The notes below the pieces were generated by a model. That model had not been told where the DNA came from and ran no database searches. It saw only the letters and a list, made by a program, of their open reading frames with translations. Positions 9,714-29,418 of a stretch of 64,000 nucleotides of DNA are shown piece by piece. The translations under genes were made by a program, and so were the position numbers. Each line of letters begins with the position of its first letter. Position 1 is the stretch's first letter. The DNA is from an uncultured Armatimonadota bacterium (GTDB taxonomy: Bacteria; Armatimonadota; Fimbriimonadia; Fimbriimonadales; Fimbriimonadaceae). The DNA lies in contig CAIUHP010000079.1 of the NCBI GenBank assembly GCA_903899015.1, forward strand, positions 1-64,000, read 5' to 3'.

Positions 9714-10223
9714 CTATGCTGAGCTTATATTTTCGATCGTCCTAGAAGCACTTGGCTTGACGATCTCTTTCGTGATCAAAGCAGACGTTGCCAAGAGAAA
9801 CATGACTCCGGTGATGAGAAAAAAGGCGACTTGGCGGGCTCTTCGGCCATTCAGCTCGGTATCAATGGCGGAATAAGCAGGGTCGGACTCCAAGTAGTGT
9901 ACGTCGGTAAAATCTAAGTTACCTGGAACCTCGCCGGTTCCGAAATAGCGTTTCCCTTTCACGATAAAGCTGTAGTTGGCTTCCGGTGCTTTCAATCGCT
10001 CCTTGGCAATCGGACTCAAAACTTCACCGAGGGCTGCCTTACTGTGGTGAATCAGTGTCGCGGCTCGGTCCATTTCGGGCAGGGCTCGTGTAACAAGTAA
10101 CCAGGAGGCAGCAACAAGCAAAGAAACGGTCACTCCTAAACACGCAATCAAACTTCGTTTTCGAGCATCAGACACTGAATTCATCAGTTTGGCTTCCGTA
10201 ATGAGTAACGACGTTCCACGCAT
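9714..10223 (-). CDS. Two-TM membrane protein with extracytoplasmic beta domain (DUF3592-like)
   Basis: The 169-residue protein has one membrane helix at about residues 25-45 (LIACLGVTVSLLVAASWLLV) and another at about 132-150 (VAFFLITGVMFLLATSALI). Between them lies an approximately 85-residue loop with 'EANYSFIVKGKRYFGTGEVPGN', similar in pattern to DUF3592 domains that sit between two helices. No catalytic residues are apparent. Its ATG overlaps the stop codon of the decarboxylase gene (TGATG), and the M50 protease gene follows after 9 nt, so all three are probably made together. The topology (two helices around an outside domain) would suit an M50 substrate or partner; that is a guess from context. 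Confidence 0.65.
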   Translation of the reverse strand: MRGTSLLITEAKLMNSVSDARKRSLIACLGVTVSLLVAASWLLVTRALPEMDRAATLIHHSKAALGEVLSPIAKERLKAPEANYSFIVKGKRYFGTGEVPGNLDFTDVHYLESDPAYSAIDTELNGRRARQVAFFLITGVMFLLATSALITKEIVKPSASRTIENISSA

Positions 10224-24743: not shown

Positions 24744-25619
24744 TCAACTGCGAAGTGCTCTTGATACGGCCCGGATGTGAGCCGGCGAAGTTCCGCAGCA
24801 GCCGCCGATCACGCTTACTCCCCGTGCGACAACGGCTTGGGCCCATGTTGCAAAGTCTTCGGGTGTCAAATCGTATTCGAATTGGTCTCCACGCAATCGA
24901 GGGCTTCCCGCGTTTGGTTGCAGTATCACTGGTGTTTTTGGGGCGGCATCAAGGATTGCCCCTCCCAACACTTGATAGTCTTGAAGACTCAACGAAGTAC
25001 CGCAATTTGCTCCAACGATACTAGCGCCAGCGTCAATCGCAGTTGCGATCGCTTGAGCCGGCTCCGTGCCCAACGCCGTTTGAAGACCGATCGCACCCTT
25101 TTCGAAAGTGAACGATGCGATGATGGGAAGACCGAACTCTCGAAGTGCTTGTACTGTTGTCTCCATTTCATTCGTGTCCGACATCGTTTCAACGATAAAA
25201 CCATCGACACCGGACTCAACAAGAATTCGGGCCTGATTCTTGACCGCCCTGGTCAAATCAGATGTTTCCAAATCACCCAGCGGTGCGAGGAAATCCCCGC
25301 AAGGACCGATATTGCCTAATACCAAACACCTGCCCGTGCTCGCCTCTTTTGCGATGGCGACACTTCCTCGATTGAGCTCTTCAAAGCGGTGAGCGTGCCC
25401 ACTTCGAGCCATCATGATTGGTGATCCACAAAAGGTATTCGTCGTTAGACAATCGGAACCCGCTTCGACATAACTCTTATGAACAGCGAGTACATCCTCA
25501 GCACGGTCTAGGTTCCACGCAATCGACCAGTCACCTTGTTTGAGACCACGTGCAATCAGTTGCGTACCCATAGCTCCGTCCAAAAGGAGAACTTCCCGAC
25601 CTTTAATGAGGGCGTTCAT
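24744..25619 (-). CDS. Homocysteine S-methyltransferase family protein
   Basis: The 291-residue barrel has all three zinc-ligand cysteines of the Hcy-binding domain: C206 in 'GANCGTS' and C274/C275 in 'GGCCGTSP', plus the N-terminal 'LLLDGAMGTQLIARG' and 'CLTTNTFCGSP'. It matches the N-terminal module of MetH and stand-alone MmuM/BHMT-type enzymes, which move a methyl group to homocysteine to give methionine. There is no folate, cobalamin or activation domain. It follows the MtaB-like gene by 15 nt in the same operon, which suggests the methyl donor comes from MtaB chemistry through a corrinoid protein coded elsewhere (inference). An ordinary betaine or S-methylmethionine donor remains possible. 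Confidence 0.87.
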   Translation of the reverse strand: MNALIKGREVLLLDGAMGTQLIARGLKQGDWSIAWNLDRAEDVLAVHKSYVEAGSDCLTTNTFCGSPIMMARSGHAHRFEELNRGSVAIAKEASTGRCLVLGNIGPCGDFLAPLGDLETSDLTRAVKNQARILVESGVDGFIVETMSDTNEMETTVQALREFGLPIIASFTFEKGAIGLQTALGTEPAQAIATAIDAGASIVGANCGTSLSLQDYQVLGGAILDAAPKTPVILQPNAGSPRLRGDQFEYDLTPEDFATWAQAVVARGVSVIGGCCGTSPAHIRAVSRALRS

Positions 25620-25634
25620 CGTTACTGAAAGGGA

Positions 25635-27017
25635 CTAATTGAGATCGTATTCGGCCGCGCGAAAAGTCGTGGTATCGACAACATCCATCATTTTAGCGAT
25701 GAAGACATCTTCTTGTTCCGGTAAGTCGTACAGTTCGTTCCTAATGCGATCGAGCCAGGGAGCCTCGCCATCAGGTAGGTGTAATCGTTTATCGTTGTAA
25801 GCATCGGAGAGAATATCGATCGCGGCCAAACCGGCGGCAACTCCTGCTCGGTAGGCGTTTGGCGCCTCGACAATCTCGGATGCAATTTCCACTGCGCTTT
25901 CGGGAGATAGGATGAGTGCTTGAGGGTCAAGGCCGATGTCGGAGCCAACCATCCATCGCTGCAACATTCCCGATGCGACCGGTCCATCGTTAATGGCCTG
26001 GTTCATTAAGCGAACATCGTAAATGAGTTGCTCCATGCTGCAAGTCGGCGCCATTCTTCCGAGGAGGCGAACATTTTGAACCGATTCATTGGACCATGTA
26101 TCGCAAGCCGCAGCGGCAACATTTCCCATTCCGTTAGCGTGAGCACAAGAGGCGGACTTCCCATCCATCGCCATGGGGAAGCCGGTGATTGCTTTGAGGA
26201 TCACATTTTCGTAGCCGCAATCCTTACCCGGTCCTACCGCTCCAAATTCGTAAGCGACCAAACTTCTAACAGCGGAAATGCTTCGTACTACCGCGGCAAA
26301 AACTTTGGGAATCGTCTTTTGCTCGGCCATGTCCATCGCGGTATTGGCAAAGCTGCATGCGGTGTCTCCCGCTGCGTAAGCTCCGTGACGGTCGGCAACG
26401 GCTTTGAGGTTGCTCCATAGAAATTCCATGTCACGAGCACCCATCACGCAGAGTGAAAAAATAACTTCGCCAACATCGCACGATTGAAGGGCGACGTCAT
26501 GGACCTCTTTTCCGCCAACCGACTCGATACTCAGTAATTCGGCACCCAAGGCAACAGCCCCTTCACACAGATCCAGGATTCCACCCCACAACATTCCTGA
26601 CCGCATCTTTGGAGGGTGCTCGGTTCCTCGCGTGTCACTAGGGGTCATGCGTAAGACTGATTTCAGTCCGTTTTTGACCTCGGCCTCGTGCATGGCATCC
26701 AGAAGAATCCGAACAATTTCGAGCCCCCACTCAGGGTTCTGAGTCATGGGAGGAAGGGATTCAAATTCAACGACTACACCGGGTGCCTCTAGCCCGGAGG
26801 CACGCGTGAGGACTCCGACAATCATTTCTCGATACTGCCGAATAACTTCGGGCATCGTCTCCAGATTGACGATCATCGACGGAAGCGTGAAATTGATCTC
26901 GGGGTAAACGATTCCCCCGCCGATGACCATGCCGGAACGTGTCCTAACTGGCTTCGGTGCATAGCCAAAGGTCAAATGGGTCGGGTTGGATATCGCAAGC
27001 GTGTCAAAAGATGGCAT
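25635..27017 (-). CDS. MtaB-like methanol:corrinoid protein methyltransferase
   Basis: The 460-residue length and N-terminal 'YAPKPVRTRSGMVIGGGIVYPEIN' match the methanol-activating subunit MtaB of methanogens and acetogens. The three zinc ligands known from Methanosarcina barkeri MtaB (Glu164, Cys220, Cys269) have counterparts at almost the same positions: E165 in 'LSIESVGGK', C221 in 'GDTACSFANT' and C267 in 'GKDCGYE'. MtaB cleaves the C-O bond of methanol and passes the methyl group to Co(I) of the corrinoid protein MtaC. No MtaC (DxHxxG motif), MtaA or reactivase gene occurs in this window. The homocysteine methyltransferase gene follows directly. Substrates other than methanol, such as a small methoxy compound, are possible. 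Confidence 0.8.
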   Translation of the reverse strand: MPSFDTLAISNPTHLTFGYAPKPVRTRSGMVIGGGIVYPEINFTLPSMIVNLETMPEVIRQYREMIVGVLTRASGLEAPGVVVEFESLPPMTQNPEWGLEIVRILLDAMHEAEVKNGLKSVLRMTPSDTRGTEHPPKMRSGMLWGGILDLCEGAVALGAELLSIESVGGKEVHDVALQSCDVGEVIFSLCVMGARDMEFLWSNLKAVADRHGAYAAGDTACSFANTAMDMAEQKTIPKVFAAVVRSISAVRSLVAYEFGAVGPGKDCGYENVILKAITGFPMAMDGKSASCAHANGMGNVAAAACDTWSNESVQNVRLLGRMAPTCSMEQLIYDVRLMNQAINDGPVASGMLQRWMVGSDIGLDPQALILSPESAVEIASEIVEAPNAYRAGVAAGLAAIDILSDAYNDKRLHLPDGEAPWLDRIRNELYDLPEQEDVFIAKMMDVVDTTTFRAAEYDLN

Positions 27018-27612
27018 GAACCTCTCTGTCTGGCCTAAAAGGAGGTTACAGTACGCACTGGTTTCAGATATGGGGTCAATTCTGTTGACACGAATCTGAG
27101 GTCAGTTCTTACTTATCGGAAATCGACATCTTACAGCGCATCCTTAGCCAACACGACGGCAGAGACGCAGATCGTGGCGTGAGAATCACGTCCCATGAGC
27201 GAATTCCAACCCGGATGGCGCGGACCGTCCAAGTTGTCTCCGAGAGCGATCCAAATGGAATTGGAATACTCTTTTTTGCCGTGGAACGCCCACTCATCGG
27301 ACAGTTTGCGGAGCGAGCGTTCCTAGTGGCTCCAAAGAGCATTTAACTTCGGCACATAAAACTCAACAAGACACTCTCTACTTTAACTTGGGGAGATGAG
27401 TAACGAACAATTTGCACGTCTAAAGGCTTTGAACCGCTGCGATTTGAATTGACGCGGTCAACTCAATTTGGAACCCGATGGGTCTCATCGCGTCACAGAT
27501 GGAAGAGATCCACTCGTCTTATTTGAGCTCGAAGCGCGGTCAAGACGACTAGGGTGACAGTTGTTAGCTTTCGAATACGGGTAGAAACTAACCCAATGGA
27601 GCATGGTCAAGG
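27018..27612. other. Intergenic region with decayed coding or mobile-element traces
   Basis: No intact gene is convincing in these 595 nt. On the plus strand a frame runs from 27089 to the TAA at 27344-27346 with protein-like composition (80 residues ending 'LFFAVERPLIGQFAERAFLVAPKSI') but without a good start codon; it may be a pseudogene tail. Next to it are two related words, GGGGTCAATTCT (27073) and GAGGTCAGTTCT (27099), spaced 26 nt apart, of a kind often seen near REP-type elements. The 270 nt before the next gene show nothing else I can name. Confidence 0.3.
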
Positions 27613-29418
27613 ATGAGGGCCCCGAGATTTTGGGGTCGGGCGGAACCGATCTGTCGGGTTGCTTATGAGTTCTGTCTCCTATTGGCCGTACTGAGCATGG
27701 TCGTGGTCCTGACCCTACGGTGGAATACTCGGTATTTCAACGTTGACGCGACCAACGATTCCACCCATGTAAGCGCAACCGTTACTACTCCTGAACGATT
27801 CTCGATTGGCGAGCATTTCTCCGCCTATCGCTTCAACCCGGACTGGCAGGAGCCCATTGGCAAAGTCGAGGTCGCGGGTCGTATTGAGAACTCGATTACT
27901 TTCAAGTTTGACCCCAGTTCTTTCCGATGGCCGATGGGTCGCCAAGGACGTGTGATCGGAGTGGAAAACAATGTTTACACAATCAATCTTGGATCAAACC
28001 TTGGACTCGTCAAAGGTAATCGACTCAACCTTTTTGACGAGCGATTGAGAGTTGGTCAGCTTGAAGTCATCGATCCGCAGCCGGACGAGTCACGAGCTGT
28101 TCTCGTGAGCTACCGAACGCCGAGCGCCGTTCCTCAATCGTTATTGGGGCTTACAGTCGGAGAATTTGAAATCGCCAATCAAATCACGGTCGAGCAAATA
28201 ACTGGCTTACCGGCAGTAGAAGGCGGACTTGTAATCGCGATCTTGCTTGGCTATTGCGGACTATGGATTCGACTGAAATCTTCGCCTCTCGAGGCGGTCG
28301 GTCCCAAATTATTAGCTCGCTTTCCGAGGCATCCCCTTACAACCAAGATTTTCCAATCGCTTCTCGGAATTCCGATTGCTTGGTTTGGATCGGAATTCCT
28401 CGCCCGATCGAGTTTTTATTTCATCCGAATCCTATCAGAGAATCTTGCCCATGCTCCGCTGAACCTCAATATTCCGTCTTGGCCGTTAGCCCTCGTTGTC
28501 CTCGGCATTTATGAAGGCTTGCTATGGAGCGGAAAGTCGCCTATTAAGGCAGCGGGAGCTTGGATCGCATTCAAAGGGGGCTTGTTCCGACGAGAGGCTC
28601 GCGAAATGCCGGAACATCTCACGATGTGGCTGTTCCACCTTGTCATTGTTTATGCTTTTGGTCGAACGCTTGGAGCGTTTCTCCAAGAAAATGCAAGCCA
28701 AGGTTTAAGCGCTTCATGGCCAAAAGCACCACCCGTTAAGTTGAGCGGCGTCGAACCAGTGAGTCTTGATGGGTTTGCCCGAACGATCCATTCGACCGCT
28801 TACGCACTCACAAACGCTCCGCACCCGGCGAATTTTGCAGATGGGTTTCTGACTTTTCAGACCGCGGTCTACAACCTCTGCATTCTGGGCTGCTTGCTTG
28901 GCTACGGATACTCCCTTTGTAGTTGGATATGGGGAAAGAAGATCCGAAATATCGACTTCACGCTTATTGGGTGGGCAAGCAATGCCGTGTGTTATGGGCC
29001 CTTGCTCGGAGTGGTACTTTGGCAAATGCTGCCCCCCGCAATGGGCAGAGAGCCGACGGTCACTAACGAATCGATTGTGGTCTTGATGCTGCTCGTCGCT
29101 GGACTTCTCAACGTAGCGTATACATTGAGCATCTGGAACCTTGGCACCATGTTCGGCGTGATGACCGACAAGGGGGTCCGAACGACCGGCTTTTATGCGG
29201 TGGTTCGCCATCCAAGTTACACGCTTGAATCTTTAATGTTCGTCGTGCTCATGTTTCGGGGCCTTTCGAATCCCGCCCAGTGGTTTGCAGTGATGGGATA
29301 TTTAGTGATCTACTGGCTCAGATCGGAGCGCGAAGACCAATTCATGACCGCTTCCAACCCCGAATACACCTCATACAAGGAGAATGTTCGGTACAAGTTC
29401 ATTCCTGGTATCTACTGA
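27613..29418 (+). CDS. Polytopic membrane protein with C-terminal isoprenylcysteine methyltransferase-like (ICMT/PEMT) domain
   Basis: The 601-residue protein starts with a membrane helix (about 17-36), then an extracytoplasmic beta-rich part (about 40-190, with 'GRVIGVENNVYTINLGSNLGLVKGNRLNL', the FlgT/Csg-like 'V-G-x-NxGLVxGxxL' pattern of secreted proteins), and then some eight helices. The last roughly 120 residues match the ICMT/phospholipid methyltransferase family: 'GFYAVVRHPSYTLESLMF' and 'WLRSEREDQFMTASNPEYTSYKENV'. That family takes a methyl group from S-adenosylmethionine in the membrane. The acceptor and the role of the outside domain are unknown. It may be cotranscribed with the GNAT gene that follows. 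Confidence 0.72.
   Translation: MRAPRFWGRAEPICRVAYEFCLLLAVLSMVVVLTLRWNTRYFNVDATNDSTHVSATVTTPERFSIGEHFSAYRFNPDWQEPIGKVEVAGRIENSITFKFDPSSFRWPMGRQGRVIGVENNVYTINLGSNLGLVKGNRLNLFDERLRVGQLEVIDPQPDESRAVLVSYRTPSAVPQSLLGLTVGEFEIANQITVEQITGLPAVEGGLVIAILLGYCGLWIRLKSSPLEAVGPKLLARFPRHPLTTKIFQSLLGIPIAWFGSEFLARSSFYFIRILSENLAHAPLNLNIPSWPLALVVLGIYEGLLWSGKSPIKAAGAWIAFKGGLFRREAREMPEHLTMWLFHLVIVYAFGRTLGAFLQENASQGLSASWPKAPPVKLSGVEPVSLDGFARTIHSTAYALTNAPHPANFADGFLTFQTAVYNLCILGCLLGYGYSLCSWIWGKKIRNIDFTLIGWASNAVCYGPLLGVVLWQMLPPAMGREPTVTNESIVVLMLLVAGLLNVAYTLSIWNLGTMFGVMTDKGVRTTGFYAVVRHPSYTLESLMFVVLMFRGLSNPAQWFAVMGYLVIYWLRSEREDQFMTASNPEYTSYKENVRYKFIPGIY

Follow-up and report, generated by a model that had tools for sequence, protein, structure and literature searches.

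An mtaB-like gene and a homocysteine methyltransferase gene in an armatimonad genome: probable remnant of a corrinoid methyl-transfer operon

The window analyzed here is a stretch of 64,000 nucleotides from the draft genome of an uncultured bacterium of the family Fimbriimonadaceae (Armatimonadota), designated G000 (4.94 Mb in 119 contigs, 99.87% complete), whose source is described as a soil-type bacterium. An earlier note had placed an MtaB-like methyltransferase gene and an adjoining homocysteine methyltransferase (HcyMT) gene at positions 24744-27017; these coordinates were correct, and both genes were real, intact and encoded on the minus strand. The features of the locus were as follows, G018 and G020 being two genomes of the same genus.

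24744..25619, minus strand: stand-alone homocysteine S-methyltransferase (HcyMT), 291 aa, PF02574 match, with zinc cysteines
25620..25634, minus strand: junction of 15 bp, reading mtaB stop TAG, tccctttcagtaacg, HcyMT ATG
25635..27017, minus strand: mtaB-like gene, 460 aa, PF12176 match, predicted zinc methyltransferase with a corrinoid as methyl acceptor and methanol or a similar compound as donor
27041..27053, minus strand: second conserved upstream element, TACTGTAACCTCC, the same in G000 and G018 and partly kept in G020
27075..27090, minus strand: first conserved upstream element, TGTCAACAGAATTGAC, lying 58-73 bp ahead of the mtaB start
27613..29418, plus strand: 601-aa protein with a PEMT-like C-terminus (PF04191, 26.5 bits), divergent neighbor of mtaB

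The mtaB reading frame encodes a protein with a full-length match to PF12176 (516 bits, E 1.4e-154, model positions 4-460 of 460), and the three zinc ligands named in the earlier note, E165, C221 and C267, were all found and aligned with those of Methanosarcina barkeri MtaB (2I2X_A), with E311 present as well. Because the protein scored 389 bits against the NCBIfam MtaB_Meth equivalog model, under the cut-off of 720, that model does not vouch for methanol specificity; MtaBs from relatives with an intact operon likewise scored below the cut-off (411 and 417 bits). The protein was 73% and 69% identical to the MtaBs of the intact operons in G018 and G020, respectively. Judged from sequence, the substrate is expected to be methanol or a similar compound. 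The HcyMT frame also gave a whole-length domain match (S-methyl_trans PF02574, 217 bits, E 5.6e-64) and retained the noted zinc cysteines C206, C274 and C275, which aligned with those of Thermotoga MetH (1q7m), and it stayed below the threshold of the betaine-homocysteine methyltransferase/MtgE-like model PRK07534 (202 versus 338 bits). In the HcyMT tree the G000 protein clustered with operon-borne HcyMTs, outside the YitJ-type enzymes and the MetH homocysteine domains; the operon-borne proteins and those from Verrucomicrobiota and Planctomycetota formed one supported group (98/99) separate from both, a group that leaves out the divergent L068 copy. The missing Shine-Dalgarno sequence before HcyMT was uninformative as a sign of decay, since only 6 of 34 genes in the window have one, approximately the background rate.

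No corrinoid protein was encoded within the window, as the earlier note had observed, and the search for MtaC-like and RamA-like proteins that it had suggested found neither in G000. The best genome-wide match to MtaC was MetH at 102 bits, compared with 348-399 bits for genuine MtaC-like proteins. B12-binding_2 domains occurred genome-wide only in the C-terminal half of MetH, an ArsR-B12 regulator and a MerR-B12 regulator, and a fourth, sub-threshold B12-binding match was a radical-SAM protein. Thus, the suggestion that an MtaC partner lies elsewhere is excluded for the G000 assembly by genome-wide profile and domain evidence, such corrinoid domains being confined to MetH and the two regulators. 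The ArsR-type helix-turn-helix fused to B12-binding domains (316 aa, L011 2214-3164, minus strand) is a candidate cobalamin-sensing regulator. Across the genome there was also no RamA/RACo reactivase (the RACo C-terminal domain was absent) and no UroD-like methyltransferase of the MtaA/CmuA type, the sole URO-D protein being HemE. A folate-directed MtvA-type enzyme was rejected, as the only two Pterin_bind matches were the N-terminal half of MetH and a 286-aa frame on contig C45 that is presumably FolP. Nor was a complete MtaC/MtaA set with its own MtaB, which the earlier note had regarded as a sign against coupling of the pair, found elsewhere in G000. The four-part corrinoid methyl-transfer system was therefore incomplete in this genome, which retained the donor and acceptor enzymes only; G018 and G020 encode donor enzyme, corrinoid protein, acceptor enzyme and reactivase.

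In both of these congeners the genes were arranged in the order mtaB, mtaC-like, three UroD genes, HcyMT and two further UroD genes, with a RACo-type reactivase gene lying opposite the operon, and the G000 locus corresponded to such an operon from which mtaC, the three UroD genes after it and everything past HcyMT are missing. The 601-aa divergent neighbor was 46-47% identical and identically arranged beside mtaB in all three genomes, and a DUF3472 protein and a histidine kinase near mtaB were also common to G000 and G018; owing to this neighbor and the further ones shared with G018, the three mtaB loci can be regarded as positional orthologues. We do not think that the 601-aa protein belongs to the pathway, and it serves here as a synteny anchor. 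MtaB was found in 6 of 85 family genomes, and an MtaC-like protein was present in all five of the others but absent from G000. Since the missing MtaC, UroD-like enzymes and reactivase occupy the syntenic place in relatives, their absence from G000 is a secondary loss. For the same reason the earlier proposal that the mechanism must differ in the absence of MtaC was unsupported. With respect to gene order, the two genes share an operon in relatives but are not neighbors there, direct mtaB-HcyMT adjacency being seen only in G000. The corrinoid protein of the relatives scored higher with MtgC and MtbC models (190 and 167 bits) than with MtaC_Meth (110 bits).

Where G000 has its 15-bp junction, the relatives carry about 4 kb of sequence with mtaC and three UroD-like genes, and tblastn detected no remnants of the missing genes near the pair. 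The deletion joint sits exactly between the mtaB stop and the HcyMT start, which is most easily understood if both genes were still useful at the time of the deletion. Both elements upstream of mtaB were positionally conserved with G018 and partly with G020; the 16-bp pattern TGTCAACARAAYTNAC occurred, among 152 loci, only upstream of mtaB in G000, G018 and G020. Outside the window, the TGTCAACARAAYTNAC and TACTGTAACCTCC elements were located ahead of mtaB at about 9929-9944 in loci L028 and L029, which makes three genomes in all. They are possibly part of an operator or promoter of the operon.

Across the family, stand-alone HcyMTs close to that of G000 and MtaC-like proteins were each found in 12 of 85 genomes and occurred together in 11 (Fisher p = 7e-12), with one exception each way: G000, which has HcyMT without MtaC, and the 73%-complete, fragmentary G074, which has MtaC without HcyMT. 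Clusters of mtaC, several UroD-like genes and HcyMT without MtaB were present in seven genomes (L143 in G010, L144 in G054, L146 in G034, L147 in G063, L148 in G055, L149 in G049 and L150 in G075), several with a RACo-type reactivase alongside, and they look like the real, wider system; MtaB would thus be an optional input to a core consisting of HcyMT and the corrinoid protein. A scan of species genomes, in which gene content was judged within the fetched stretch, kept 80 MtaB loci, of which 50 had an MtaC-like gene and 12 an HcyMT gene, all 12 also with MtaC. The order MtaC-MtaB-UroD-HcyMT-UroD recurred in other Armatimonadota families (L171 and L175, with a similar set in L174), and clustering of MtaC, MtaB, UroD and HcyMT was likewise found in Verrucomicrobiota/Planctomycetota. 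Of 18 genomes from other phyla in which MtaB had no MtaC beside it, 15 carried MtaC elsewhere; in the other three, which are of no stated completeness (G086, G090 and G093, with MtaB loci L041, L070 and L083), no MtaC-like protein except MetH was found. In another armatimonad the MtaB match was split over neighboring frames of 299 and 254 aa (G201:C4:136527-137880), probably a broken copy.

The MtaB tree placed G000 as sister to G018 on a long branch (0.42 versus 0.15 and 0.18). The G000 MtaB branch measured 18.5%, compared with 8.9 for G018 and 12.8 for G020, and the corresponding values were 23.8 versus 21.2 and 20.9 for HcyMT and 6.2 versus 10.0 and 11.8 for the cobalamin half of MetH (MetH-C), such that, relative to MetH-C, MtaB evolved about 3 times and HcyMT about 2 times faster in G000 than in its relatives. 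At alignment columns with 97% or higher conservation across 81 MtaBs, G000 carried 8 changes, G018 one and G020 none. The G000 changes included G222S, beside the zinc ligand C221, and S295N/P296G; they need not destroy function, since the M. barkeri enzyme, too, differs from the bacterial consensus at those places. Codon models rejected omega = 1 on the G000 branch for both MtaB (2dlnL 22.3) and HcyMT (2dlnL 18.2), while the two-ratio omega for MtaB on G000 (0.06 versus 0.014) was not significant (2dlnL 3.2); synonymous sites were saturated, and therefore the deletion cannot be dated with these models.

We are confident that the mtaB-HcyMT pair is what remains of a corrinoid-dependent operon for methyl transfer to homocysteine. 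By analogy with MtaBC, MtoABCD and MtgBCDE, on which the catalytic route is modeled, MtaB in the intact relatives would take a methyl group from methanol, or from a similar compound, and place it on Co(I) of the MtaC-like protein, the UroD-like enzymes would load the corrinoid from other methylated substrates or act as further methyltransferases, HcyMT would transfer the methyl group from CH3-Co(III)-MtaC to homocysteine to yield methionine, and the RACo/RamA-like protein would rescue oxidized corrinoid by restoring Co(I). Homocysteine as the acceptor is suggested by conserved co-localization of the genes. With mtaC, all UroD-like genes and the reactivase lost from G000, mtaB and HcyMT would have been left end to end. 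The functional coupling proposed in the earlier note was supported by the clusters of relatives, but not as a corrinoid-free mechanism. As the best overall explanation we favor, with moderate confidence, a relict pair on which constraint has relaxed. The syntenic full operon, the absence of MtaC, UroD-like enzymes and RACo, the co-occurrence pattern and the faster MtaB branch count for this explanation; the intact reading frames, rejection of omega = 1, zinc ligands, upstream elements and exact joint count against it. At lower confidence, the pair most likely no longer forms a complete dedicated pathway, with HcyMT possibly useful on its own, and we infer that the pair is idle at present. The locus is thus probably a reduced leftover of that operon, and not a novel route that dispenses with B12.

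Among the alternatives, the one that survives best, although we consider it rather unlikely, is that the pair still works by borrowing the cobalamin carrier of MetH, which is split in G000 into a 647-aa homocysteine and pterin half and a 574-aa cobalamin and activation half. The halves lie on different contigs (L010 2546-4270 and L026 5308-7251, both minus strand). In this scheme the methyl group would go from MtaB to the cobalamin in the 574-aa half and then, by way of HcyMT or the homocysteine half of MetH, to homocysteine, and the SAM-dependent activation domain of MetH would replace RACo. Such borrowing would cover the loss of MtaC and RACo at once, and the C-terminal half of MetH is the only corrinoid methyl carrier in G000 (B12-binding_2, B12-binding with GDVHDIGKN, and Met_synt_B12). 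Purifying selection, the conserved upstream elements and the clean joint also favor a pair that still works. According to Sauer and Thauer in 1999, free cob(I)alamin reportedly replaces MtaC in vitro with M. barkeri MtaB, which makes an MtaC-free reaction chemically conceivable. Sharing of a corrinoid protein has a precedent in Ruegeria pomeroyi, in which MtgC is common to methionine synthesis and glycine betaine demethylation (PMC12478193). The split of MetH, however, is family-wide and was rejected as a special adaptation: a separate cobalamin half was found in 13 of 13 relatives examined, mostly without MtaB, and so does not represent an adaptation to the loss. In addition, MetH-C evolved slowly in G000 (branch 6.2) and gave no indication of having acquired another partner, the MtaB sequence has unusual substitutions, one of them next to C221, and the mtaB-HcyMT arrangement occurs in no other genome. 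We regard the more specific proposal, a working two-gene methanol-to-methionine bypass created by deletion of the operon middle, with MtaB charging the cobalamin half of MetH, as doubtful.

Less probable still is that HcyMT has been kept for itself, with another methyl donor (for example S-methylmethionine, a betaine or methylcobalamin), and that mtaB is carried along unused on the shared transcript. The YitJ-type HcyMT-MTHFR fusion present in most members of the genus is lacking in G000, G018 and G020, for which a second homocysteine acceptor could be valued, and the relative rate increase was smaller in HcyMT than in MtaB; core-MetE provides a precedent for corrinoid-to-homocysteine transfer by a single enzyme (PMC7005905). 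Against this stand the company of an MtaC-like gene that the HcyMT clade keeps in all other family members and the rejection of omega = 1 by G000 MtaB itself. That an intact operon exists and mtaC and the UroD genes were dropped in assembly or binning is very improbable even for a draft in 119 contigs, as the joint is internal to a 189,651-bp contig of a genome 99.87% complete, neither copies nor remnants of the roughly seven missing genes were found anywhere in G000, and a joint falling by chance exactly between a stop and a start codon is unlikely.

The relict pair and the clusters of its relatives can be compared with several known systems. An MtaB homologue was noted in 2008 in the verrucomicrobial strain TAV2 (PMC2474590), and a floodplain study reported mtaB in 1.6% of its MAGs (PMC11264602). 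The cluster of MtaC-like, UroD-like, HcyMT and RACo genes, with MtaB optional, is apparently undescribed and widespread in Armatimonadota, Verrucomicrobiota and Planctomycetota; searches of the open full-text literature for an MtaC/UroD/HcyMT cluster found none described from the first two of these phyla, which is weak evidence, subscription papers falling mostly outside that literature. MtaBC (M. barkeri 2I2X; acetogens) shares the MtaB fold family, zinc ligands and E311 position with G000, and its corrinoid protein is encoded beside MtaB, as in the relatives of G000, whereas G000 has no MtaC; the acceptor enzyme here would, from its sequence, be homocysteine-directed rather than CoM- or folate-directed, and the corrinoid protein of the relatives is nearer to MtgC/MtbC than to MtaC_Meth. 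In the accessible part of the source on the MtoABCD/MtvABC O-demethylases (PMC8630106), donor enzyme(s), corrinoid protein and reactivase are clustered as in the intact relatives, but the methyl acceptor is H4MPT or H4F rather than homocysteine and no HcyMT gene is reported. Type 1 mlp clusters, in the portion of the source available (PMC10418091), likewise combine SCMT/UroD homologues with corrinoid proteins in non-methanogens, and the account there includes neither MtaB nor a homocysteine acceptor of this type. Core-MetE also transfers a methyl group from corrinoid to homocysteine without folate, but it belongs to the MetE fold family whereas the HcyMT of the window is a PF02574 protein (PMC7005905). 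MtgBCDE of R. pomeroyi, an aerobic heterotroph, comprises a separate donor, corrinoid protein, homocysteine enzyme and RamA-like reactivase, and its methyl group can end on homocysteine; it differs in that its donor enzyme is MttB-like rather than MtaB/UroD-like, in carrying the folate-directed MtgD, and in having the corrinoid protein that the window lacks (PMC12478193). G000 offers a natural test of whether MtaB can survive without its partner by using MetH. If the proposed route is true, these bacteria would turn methanol or methoxy groups into the methyl group of methionine through a corrinoid protein, and the cluster would be a cousin of the marine MtgBCDE route.
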